This document shows, in pieces, positions 2,546 through 8,479 of a stretch of DNA of 64,000 nucleotides. Numbering within the stretch: position 1 is the first letter of the stretch; each line of letters starts with the position of its first letter. Below the pieces are notes generated by a model. That model had not been told where the DNA came from, did no database searches, and saw nothing but the letters and a program-made list of their open reading frames with translations. Position numbers and translations under genes: made by a program. This DNA is from Kiloniella spongiae (lineage in GTDB: Bacteria > Pseudomonadota > Alphaproteobacteria > Kiloniellales > Kiloniellaceae): NCBI RefSeq assembly GCF_001026905.1, contig NZ_LAQL01000004.1:124001-188000 (forward strand), given 5' to 3'.

Positions 2546-2959
2546 TCAGCCGCCTTGAATTGTAATCAAATCCTGATTCTCAATACCTAAGGCCTTAAGC
2601 TTAATCAACAAAGCAAACAGTTTTCCCGCATCTGTTTTTTCGTCTGCCCGTATCGTGAAGGTACCACTCGTACGCAGAATATTCTGCTTCTCGGCCTCTA
2701 CGACGTTCATAAACTCAGATGCAGCAAATATCTGTCCCAAATAATAGATCTCAAAATCCCGAGAAATGGAAAGGCTTGCAAGATCACCGTGGAACTCTGC
2801 TTCTATAGAAGATTTTGGTAACACAATCGCAGCCTGTTCTTTCGGCTGTATCCGTCCCACCACCATAAAGAAAATCAACATCAAAAAAACAATATTAATC
2901 AAGGGCAACATTGTTTCAACGACAGGTTCCTGTCCTGATTTTTGCGAAGGAACGCGCAA
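2546..2959 (-). CDS. ExbD/TolR-family protein, second copy, transmembrane Asp replaced by Asn
   Basis: A 137-residue ExbD/TolR protein: short cytoplasmic N-terminus, one membrane helix (about residues 17-38) and a periplasmic domain. In this family a single Asp early in the helix carries protons; here the motif reads PLINIVFLMLIFFM, with Asn22 where the neighbouring copy has Asp20. The AAT codon was read directly. It is the last gene of an exbB-exbD-exbD operon, 4 bases after the preceding copy, so co-expression is near certain. It may form a mixed ExbD dimer inside the ExbB ring with only one protonatable side chain. That role is inference; a TolR-like role is less likely because no tol genes are present. 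Confidence 0.85.
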   Translation of the reverse strand: MRVPSQKSGQEPVVETMLPLINIVFLMLIFFMVVGRIQPKEQAAIVLPKSSIEAEFHGDLASLSISRDFEIYYLGQIFAASEFMNVVEAEKQNILRTSGTFTIRADEKTDAGKLFALLIKLKALGIENQDLITIQGG

Positions 2960-2963
2960 TTTT

Positions 2964-3404
2964 TTATTCCTCTGTCCCGGATAGATCCTGAGTATTATCT
3001 TGACCTTGATTCGAACCGGGCATCAGAACAGTGTCGTTCAGTCCACTCAACGCCAAGGCATCCATCGCCGCGATAACGTCCTGCAGCTTAGTTCCTGCTC
3101 TGGGTGTCAGCGTCACAAGAGACAAAGTATCGCCCTGTTCCTGCTGACGAACTATGCGGCCGATCTCGTTACAATCATAGAAGATTTCATCAAGAAAACA
3201 TTTACCATTTGCGCCGACGTCAATTTTAACAACAGGGCGCTCAGATACAGCCCCCTTGCCCCCTGTTGCCGGTTTCAACGACAACAATCTCGGCATATCA
3301 AAGGATGTCGCCACCATAAAAAAGATCAACAAAATGAAAACGACATCGATCAAGGGTGTCAGGCCGATTTGCGGCGTTGTATTTCCCTGTCTCTTCACCT
3401 GCAT
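2964..3404 (-). CDS. exbD: Biopolymer transport protein ExbD, canonical copy
   Basis: A 146-residue ExbD/TolR protein with the helix motif LTPLIDVVFILLIFFMV, in which Asp20 is the expected proton-carrying residue. A single membrane helix is followed by a periplasmic domain and an acidic, Gln-rich tail. With ExbB it would use the proton motive force to energise a TonB protein for uptake through outer-membrane receptors. It lies 6 bases after exbB and 4 bases before a second ExbD copy. No tonB or receptor gene is in the window, so the partner must be encoded elsewhere. The Fur-type palindrome upstream of exbB would control all three genes. Confidence 0.9.
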   Translation of the reverse strand: MQVKRQGNTTPQIGLTPLIDVVFILLIFFMVATSFDMPRLLSLKPATGGKGAVSERPVVKIDVGANGKCFLDEIFYDCNEIGRIVRQQEQGDTLSLVTLTPRAGTKLQDVIAAMDALALSGLNDTVLMPGSNQGQDNTQDLSGTEE

Positions 3405-3410
3405 TGTTTA

Positions 3411-4085
3411 TTATTCCGCAGCTTTAGGGCTAACCAAACCCTGATGAAGCCCTTCTCCACGATTGAGATACAGATGCTCGGTAAGGCTATTTACTTTTTC
3501 GACAACACTTGTCAGTTGCTGGTAAGCCGCAGATTTTAAAAGCGCATGAAGCACCATGGCTGGCATCGCGACAACCAAGCCCAAAGCGGTCGTCAGCAAT
3601 GCTTCCCAAATGCCACCTGATAAAAGGCTGGGATCAACATTGTTTCCTGCACTTTCCAATGCCTGAAAAGCCGAAATCATGCCGATTACGGTGCCGAGTA
3701 ATCCCAAAAGTGGACTTAAAGCTGCAATCAGGGCAATAACACTCAAGCCGCTTTCCAGATTGGTCAAAAGCTTATCGCCCACCTTTTGTGCTTCATCATC
3801 CCAACGCTGTTCTTCATCGCGGTTGACGGCCAAACCTTTGTTAAGCGCGGCATAAAAGAGTTTCTGGCTCCATGGCGTGCCTTTATCTGCAAGCGATTTT
3901 GCTTCCAGTATTTTGCCACTGCGGACCAAATCCAGCGCTTTGAACAATTCTCTTTCGCACGAGAACCTAAGCCAGAGATACTGTAAAATCTTGGAAAGGA
4001 AGATTGTTAAAGTAAGAAAAGATAATCCTACAAGGCAATAGCCTACAATACCTGCTTTTTCGAGCATTTCATAGGTTTGCAGCAC
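3411..4085 (-). CDS. exbB: MotA/TolQ/ExbB proton channel protein ExbB
   Basis: A 224-residue inner-membrane protein of the MotA/TolQ/ExbB family. It has one N-terminal helix (about 13-37), a cytoplasmic loop, and two C-terminal helices holding the family signature LLGLLGTVIGMISAFQAL and the last helix around LLTTALGLVVAMPAMVL. ExbB forms the pentameric ring around ExbD helices and conducts protons. It is the first gene of a three-gene leftward operon. The start codon lies 26 bases from a perfect Fur-type palindrome, which suggests iron control. The length and iron-type promoter favour ExbB over TolQ. Confidence 0.88.
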   Translation of the reverse strand: MLQTYEMLEKAGIVGYCLVGLSFLTLTIFLSKILQYLWLRFSCERELFKALDLVRSGKILEAKSLADKGTPWSQKLFYAALNKGLAVNRDEEQRWDDEAQKVGDKLLTNLESGLSVIALIAALSPLLGLLGTVIGMISAFQALESAGNNVDPSLLSGGIWEALLTTALGLVVAMPAMVLHALLKSAAYQQLTSVVEKVNSLTEHLYLNRGEGLHQGLVSPKAAE

Positions 4086-7673: not shown

Positions 7674-8479
7674 GTGCAATTTTTGTAGTTTTTGGATCTT
7701 GTTTTGCCGCATGGCGAACAATTATTAGCAACCAAGAACATCAGCTTGAGCTTAAAAAGCATGATGCTGAACTGTTCAATAAAGCATTTGAACAGTTGGG
7801 TAATAATAGCCCACATGTAAGAGTAGCTGCTCTTATACGATTGTGGAAGGGAGTGGAAGAAGGGAGATTTGAAAAGAGCTCCTTTTACCTCCTCCTTGAT
7901 CAATACATAGTTTCGATCAGTAGCCGCAGAGGAAATATTTCAGATAAAACAATAGATTTTGAAACGCGTGAAAAAAGGAAAGAGGCAAGAACTGAAACTC
8001 GCTCTATTCTTCAATTTTATAAAGAAGAAGTTAATAAAGAAAATCTTAATCGGAAACGAAACTGGGCTTACAGCAACCTTTCTGGCATGGATTTTAGAGG
8101 CATGGATCTTAGGGGAACAAACCTCGAAGGCTGTAATCTCAAAAACACTATTTTTGTTGCAGCAAAAATGAACGATACAAATTTGAGAAGAGCAAACCTT
8201 GAAGGTGCGAATATGAGTTGTGCAGATTTGGGTGAGGCATTTTTGAATAAAACAAATTTGAAAGAAACTGATTTCTCTTATGCAAATATTAGCAGGGCAA
8301 ACCTTACGAATTCTTATGTAGAAAATGCAAATTTTACCGGGGCAAGATTAGATAGAACTCTTCTGGATGGGATTCATAAATTCACCCAAGAACAGTTTGA
8401 TAGCATTAATGATGAGACAAAAACGCAAGTAAGAACCCCTGAACATATACACCTGACCGTCATAAAAAACAAACATTGA
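7607..8479 (+). CDS. Pentapeptide-repeat protein with N-terminal membrane helix
   Basis: This open frame has no usual start codon until a TTG at 7796, yet already encodes EIEALPNLVLAIGAIFVVFG, a second membrane helix, before that point. This suggests the true start is ATG 7494 in another frame. The part from 7796 contains a linker typical of the family (FNKAFEQLG...VRVAALIRLW), then about 20 pentapeptide repeats of the A(D/N)LxX kind (LRRANLEGANMSCADLGEAFL). Such repeats fold into a right-handed four-sided helix. Members with two membrane helices ahead of the repeats are common in bacterial accessory regions but have no settled function. The stop codon is followed in the same frame by an integrase relic. 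Confidence 0.65.
   Translation, partial: LFFWLENQKEEIEALPNLVLAIGAIFVVFGSCFAAWRTIISNQEHQLELKKHDAELFNKAFEQLGNNSPHVRVAALIRLWKGVEEGRFEKSSFYLLLDQYIVSISSRRGNISDKTIDFETREKRKEARTETRSILQFYKEEVNKENLNRKRNWAYSNLSGMDFRGMDLRGTNLEGCNLKNTIFVAAKMNDTNLRRANLEGANMSCADLGEAFLNKTNLKETDFSYANISRANLTNSYVENANFTGARLDRTLLDGIHKFTQEQFDSINDETKTQVRTPEHIHLTVIKNKH

Follow-up and report, generated by a model that had tools for sequence, protein, structure and literature searches.

The window, a stretch of 64,000 nucleotides from Kiloniella spongiae, carries three neighbouring genes on its minus strand: an exbB followed by two exbD genes, exbD1 and exbD2 (Table 1). The translated ExbB has the threonine motifs GLLGTVIG and ALLTTALG, and both ExbD proteins score above the membership cut-off of family PF02472 (25.4 bits). 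The TTG start of exbD2 lies four bases past the exbD1 stop, and the equivalent place in the orthologue L008 is occupied by ATG. The transmembrane Asp that carries protons in the PF02472 family is present in ExbD1 and absent from ExbD2, which has Asn22 in its place; the sequence-only reading had named Asp20 in the first copy and Asn22 (AAT) in the second, and both can be read directly from the window. Profiles built from 39 first copies and from 39 second copies both matched E. coli ExbD (6tyi; E values of 2e-17 and 3e-19), with the Asp or Asn site aligned to Asp25 of 6tyi each time. On this sequence comparison ExbD2 is classed as an ExbD homologue and filed outside the proton-carrying ExbDs.

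Table 1. Positions of the exb genes and of the codons discussed in the text, counted from the first letter of the window.
Feature	Position	Strand	Remarks
exbB (MotA/TolQ/ExbB family)	3411..4085	-	GTG start; PF01618, 106 bits
exbD1, first ExbD, Asp kept	2964..3404	-	PF02472, 72.1 bits
exbD2, second ExbD, Asn replaces Asp	2546..2959	-	PF02472, 53.3 bits; TTG start
Asp20 codon GAT of exbD1	3345..3347	-	aligned with E. coli ExbD Asp25; motif PLIDVVF
Asn22 codon AAT of exbD2	2894..2896	-	aligned with E. coli ExbD Asp25; motif PLINIVF
Thr16 codon of exbD1	3357..3359	-	position -4 from Asp
Glu15 codon of exbD2	2915..2917	-	position -7 from Asn

A Ton motor is recognised by an exbB adjoining an exbD and by the pore threonine motifs, and the window has both. 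No tolA-like or other tol gene, the mark of a Tol motor, adjoins the set in the reading frames that were read, and no tonB lies within the operon. A sensor histidine kinase gene faces the exbB-exbD1-exbD2 set from the opposite side. The window also holds, at 7796-8479 on the plus strand, a frame with what we take to be pentapeptide-like repeats.

Two further species of the genus have exbD2 orthologues whose proteins are 84% and 79% identical to that of the window. These were checked for Asp at this site and were found to have Asn instead, encoded by AAC in one and AAT in the other. The residue is therefore not a base error unique to this assembly, as the sequence-only reading had allowed it might be. 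The ratio of dN to dS for exbD2 between the window and these two relatives was about 0.10 and 0.16.

We used several searches to find how widespread such pairs are. The whole ExbD2 protein of the window was used as query against 61 genomes of the order, 32 of which gave a match. The other queries start just past the Asn, making the selection of loci blind to the residue itself. They covered the class (289 genomes, of which 30 returned loci and 40 fetched by place were read, so that these counts give no per-genome frequency), at least 80 named loci (sought with the peptide VFLLLIFF), the class to which an Alloalcanivorax genome belongs (185 genomes), and the phylum that includes L137 (60 genomes), L137 being a metagenome bin whose record is titled Gemmatimonadetes. 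Two exbD genes were counted as an adjacent pair when they scored over 35 and their sites lay within 800 bases on the same strand.

The 260 loci contained 140 distinct pairs, of which 107 were Asp/Asn, 22 Asp/Asp, nine Asn/Asp and two Asp/Ser. None of the 140 was without any Asp, and all 118 pairs with a non-Asp copy had Asp in the neighbouring copy. ExbDs that were unpaired in the stretch fetched, which was short and may have left a partner outside it or one too distant for the profile, had Asp in 91 of 92 cases; the lone Asn copy, L071, lies next to a partner truncated at a contig end, and this was the only row dropped. By source, with overlaps between the sources, the loci up to L048, mainly from the search with the window's ExbD2, gave 32 Asp/Asn pairs; the class search gave 37 Asp/Asn and 10 Asp/Asp; the named loci at least 32 Asp/Asn, four Asp/Asp, one Asn/Asp and one Asp/Ser; the class of the Alloalcanivorax genome 11 Asp/Asn and one Asp/Ser; and the L137 phylum nine Asn/Asp and eight Asp/Asp. 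The expectation that the second copy always has Asn thus holds for operons of the window's type but not for every operon with two ExbDs, 22 of the 140 pairs and the Sphingobium operon discussed below having Asp in both copies.

The pattern, which the sequence-only reading had proposed to check in related alphaproteobacteria, was found there, in Rhodobacterales, Rhodospirillales, Hyphomicrobiales and Kordiimonadales, but its carriers extend beyond them to the Gammaproteobacteria (Oceanospirillales, Chromatiales, Salinisphaerales, Woeseiales, Cellvibrionales, Arenicellales and a Shewanella). Two further Asp/Asn operons, outside the count of 140, lie on plasmids of Phaeobacter inhibens (L319) and Leisingera caerulea (L320), inside siderophore- or B12-like uptake loci, and the annotated Phaeobacter and Leisingera plasmid records label both proteins 'biopolymer transporter ExbD'. 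A plasmid search with the window protein gave no match. Six genomes of other phyla gave only Asp at the site: none of 20 matches in Bacteroidota, Nitrospira, Planctomycetota, a deltaproteobacterium, Acidobacteria and Poribacteria was an Asn-type copy, a result that with one genome each carries little weight for any single phylum. Ser replaces Asn in the second copy at L091 and L204, which belong to one genome, and at L221.

The Asn is strongly conserved. Clustering of second copies at 60% identity gave 74 clusters with an Asn representative and one with Ser; no cluster mixed Asn with Asp and one mixed Asn with Ser. Ranked by conservation across the 75 representatives, the Asn column (74 Asn, 1 Ser) shares third place among 121 columns, and of the ten top-ranking columns of ExbD2 nine are at the transmembrane helix or next to it. 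The Asn copies in pairs use AAC in 77 cases and AAT in 39. We looked for a compensating charge in the second-copy helix and rejected the idea, as none of 109 second copies has an ionisable residue between -4 and +13, the site itself aside. The genes of the Asp/Asn pairs, with starts chosen by rule, are 30 bases or less apart in 104 of 107 cases and overlap in 42. The ExbB beside Asp/Asn-type pairs keeps the GxxGT threonine in 105 of 108 cases; its second threonine motif matches the search pattern in 79 of the 108, and the other 29 did not resolve with that pattern. As far as tested, the channel wall beside these pairs looks ordinary.

The two copies also differ consistently in two features near this site. 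Of the 107 Asp/Asn pairs, 103 have a Thr at -4 in the first copy and two have it in the second, while an acidic residue at -8 to -6 is found in four first copies and 100 second copies. The full Thr/acid split holds in 66 of the 75 pairs at 60% identity, and the window pair obeys it. Among 91 unpaired ExbDs, 62 have the acid, 58 the Thr and 39 both, and of the 22 Asp/Asp pairs, 17 have Thr and acid together in the first copy and 14 in the second. The nine reversed Asn/Asp pairs have no split, acid and Thr being present in both copies of all nine. Judged by these positions, ExbD1 and ExbD2 jointly hold features that many single ExbDs carry in one chain. This division, together with the constant neighbourhood, is our main argument for a proposed obligate heterodimer. 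An obligate partnership fits the pairing, although pairing does not prove a 1:1 dimer, and an Asn copy beside an Asp copy agrees with the mixed ExbD dimer, protonatable at a single side chain, that the sequence-only reading had proposed. The further suggestion of that reading, that such a motor might be directional or regulated, gained no support.

Many bacteria seem, from these pairs, to build the axle of a Ton motor from two proteins, one of which keeps the proton-carrying acid. For the window we consider it probable, at roughly 0.6, that exbB-exbD1-exbD2 encodes a Ton-type 5:2 motor, ExbB5-ExbD1-ExbD2, with a heterodimeric axle and a single proton carrier. The exbB product would form the pentameric wall and the Asp of ExbD1 would take up and release protons, while the Asn of ExbD2, with the shape of a protonated, neutral Asp, would hold one site permanently in the 'H' state. 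MotB D22N is called protonation-mimetic (PMC9389320). With one site fixed as neutral, an Asp/Asn axle can neither swap protonation between its sites nor carry two charges. The motor would switch back and forth between full neutrality and a charge on the ExbD1 site only, and would power a TonB. If such an axle turns, geometry would make it move about 72 degrees per proton, or five protons per turn, rather than one per 36 degrees.

The E. coli and Serratia ExbB-ExbD motor (PDB 6tyi, 7ajq) resembles this arrangement in its families (PF01618, PF02472), in the position of the Asp and in the link to Ton, a tonB following 92 of the 107 Asp/Asn pairs. It differs in having one ExbD and two Asps per axle, and the rotary models described for MotAB, ExbBD and TolQR use both, swapping protonation between them at one proton per 36 degrees (PMC9389320, PMC12905483, PMC12215075). 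The two Asps are described as facing different ways in most of the solved Ton and Tol structures, one towards an ExbB or TolQ Thr and the other towards the cytoplasmic cavity (PMC12905483). Whether exchange in 5:2 motors passes through a doubly protonated or a doubly charged state is stated to be not known (PMC9389320). A working Asp/Asn motor, if true, would discriminate between these models. The pairs make it testable whether 5:2 motors must have two proton sites, and offer a natural route to asking if the gear ratio is an evolved trait. Points against a single-carrier heterodimer are the reversed pairs without a split, two Asp rows inside the Asn group of the large tree described below, the inactivity ascribed to E. 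coli ExbD D25N (though there both chains carry Asn), the small numbers in the comparison of the genus given below, and the lack of a tonB in the window operon.

The best surviving alternative, which we nevertheless think improbable, is that two homodimers share one ExbB, ExbD1-ExbD1 being the working form and ExbD2-ExbD2 a proton-dead brake, spare pool or regulator. The order of the genes hints at joint production of the two proteins, and the E. coli ExbD mutant D25N is called inactive (PMC11658791), a result that concerns a dimer with two Asn. However, a dead homodimer explains neither the division of Thr and acid between the copies nor their constant neighbourhood. A little less probable again is a mixture of homodimers and heterodimers whose ratio tunes the motor like a gear, with ExbD2 lowering proton use. 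That first copies retain the Asp agrees with this, as do a third exbD of the ExbD2 kind, but bearing Asp, beside the operon in G003 and a second ExbD2-like match nearby in G005. Against it, the acid seen in 62 of the 91 unpaired ExbDs is missing from first copies, a hint that these do not act alone. We rate as quite unlikely the idea that ExbD2 is a periplasmic adaptor outside the axle, its transmembrane Asp being free to change. The periplasmic domain of ExbD2 does match that of ExbD, but a freed site should drift to many residues, and the conservation at and beside the helix, the Asn column included, is the reverse of this. That the Asn is a sequencing error, or ExbD2 a spare copy in decay, can be dismissed: no point was found in its favour, and the 107 Asp/Asn pairs, the switch between AAT and AAC with Asn kept, and the low dN/dS reject it.

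Tandem exbD operons are already known. The tonB1-exbB1-exbD1-exbD2 operon of Sphingobium is described as having two exbD genes in tandem and as resisting disruption, but unlike the window's set it has Asp in both ExbD copies (PMC8599685). The operons with two exbB genes that we met in this survey likewise have a tandem exbD pair, but with Asp in both copies. AglRQS of Myxococcus combines one MotA-like with two MotB-like proteins, and whether these form hetero- or homodimers is stated to be unknown; unlike our pairs, both MotB-like proteins are described as having the Asp (PMC9389320). The TPH-vWA force transducers encoded beside tolQ homologues are mostly encoded as heterologous gene pairs, whose products are predicted to lie together inside a TolQ-like pentamer, but they have one Asp per monomer and are not ExbD (PMC12204202). 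Among the matches listed from the open-licence literature, in the excerpts available, we found no report of natural Asp/Asn ExbD pairs, which does not establish that none is in print; the excerpts of PMC12864828, PMC13367063, PMC5903867, PMC4030992, PMC10734418 and PMC8986121 held nothing helpful on the question.

To ask how often the Asn arose we made a large quick tree of 111 rows, with the Asp/Asn letter masked, and a focused quick tree of 50 rows. In the large tree the proteobacterial second copies cluster, weakly (SH-aLRT 85), and include two Asp rows, the second copy of L075 and the third exbD of L041. The Asn is therefore, on these trees, not absolutely required. In the L137 phylum, first copies with Asn group with Asp copies from the same phylum, and in the focused tree that phylum lies on one side of a branch supported at 99, while the corresponding value for the proteobacterial Asn copies is 98. 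A focused tree constrained to unite all Asn copies is 12.9 log units worse, a borderline result (AU p 0.052), and a single clade of all Asn and Ser copies is not rejected in the large tree (AU p 0.157). We favour, without regarding it as proven, a second origin of Asn in the reversed pairs. Within the L137 phylum the first exbD has Asn in L236-L245 and Asp in L246-L253, and the second copy has Asp in both groups. More tentatively, and at somewhat less than even odds, the pairs may represent a natural family of one-site rotary motors with at least two origins in opposite gene order, acting in some genomes as the only Ton motor, stepping 72 degrees at half the proton cost and never doubly charged.

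The genome of the window itself has five matches to PF02472. One is a TolR-like copy with Asp on contig C12, in a tolQ-tolR-tolA-like set named by resemblance, and two are the window pair. The other two form a pair on contig C2 with the same pattern, Asp then Asn, followed by a tonB and surrounded by fecI/fecR-type, TonB-receptor, FecCD and binding-protein genes, a neighbourhood of siderophore- or B12-type uptake like that of the plasmid pairs. The genome has two tonB genes, the second lying in a haem locus that holds HemS, a TonB receptor and an ABC importer and has no exbB or exbD.

Comparison of nine genomes of the genus suggests which TonB the window's set may serve. A haem-locus tonB is present in six of them: the window's own genome (G000), G042, G043, G045, G047 and G048. 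In G042 and G048 an exbB and one Asp-bearing exbD are part of the haem locus itself, and in G043, where part of the locus was covered, an exbB and a single Asp exbD lie within 3 kb of the related tonB. In G000, G045 and G047 the haem locus is without exbB-exbD (L283:4939-11973, L317 and L318, in contrast to L315 and L316), HemS being absent from the gene list of G047. The window's set is found in these three genomes only. With three genomes against three the association gives a Fisher p of 0.10, and the species are related. It seems, though this is suggestive only, that an Asp/Asn set took over the same job from an Asp-only set within the genus. Most likely, we infer, the window's set serves the haem-locus TonB encoded on another contig and replaced an older set with a single ExbD; in G000 and G045 a further Asp/Asn set is present and could also serve it. 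In five of the nine genomes (G000, G044, G045, G047 and G049) Asp/Asn sets provide the only non-Tol ExbDs: the window's set alone in G047, and the set of the C2 kind alone in G044 and G049. G046, which is 77% complete, has one Tol-like copy only.

A few loci depart from the common arrangement. A single frame of 287 residues (L061:991-1854) was considered as a natural fusion of ExbD1 and ExbD2 and rejected: the end of its first part is not ExbD-like, and the second helix would land on the wrong side. It is likely an assembly frameshift. The second exbD of L075 (G169), which has Asp at the site and yet groups with the Asn copies, is possibly a reversion to Asp or an early branch. The third exbD of L041 (10623-11060, minus strand, in G003) lies upstream of exbB and combines an ExbD2-like body with the first-copy motif LTPLID, and in G005, which has the same genus code, the second ExbD2-like match is about 1.8 kb from its ExbD2. 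An extra ExbD2-like exbD of this kind could let one motor pick an Asp or an Asn partner.
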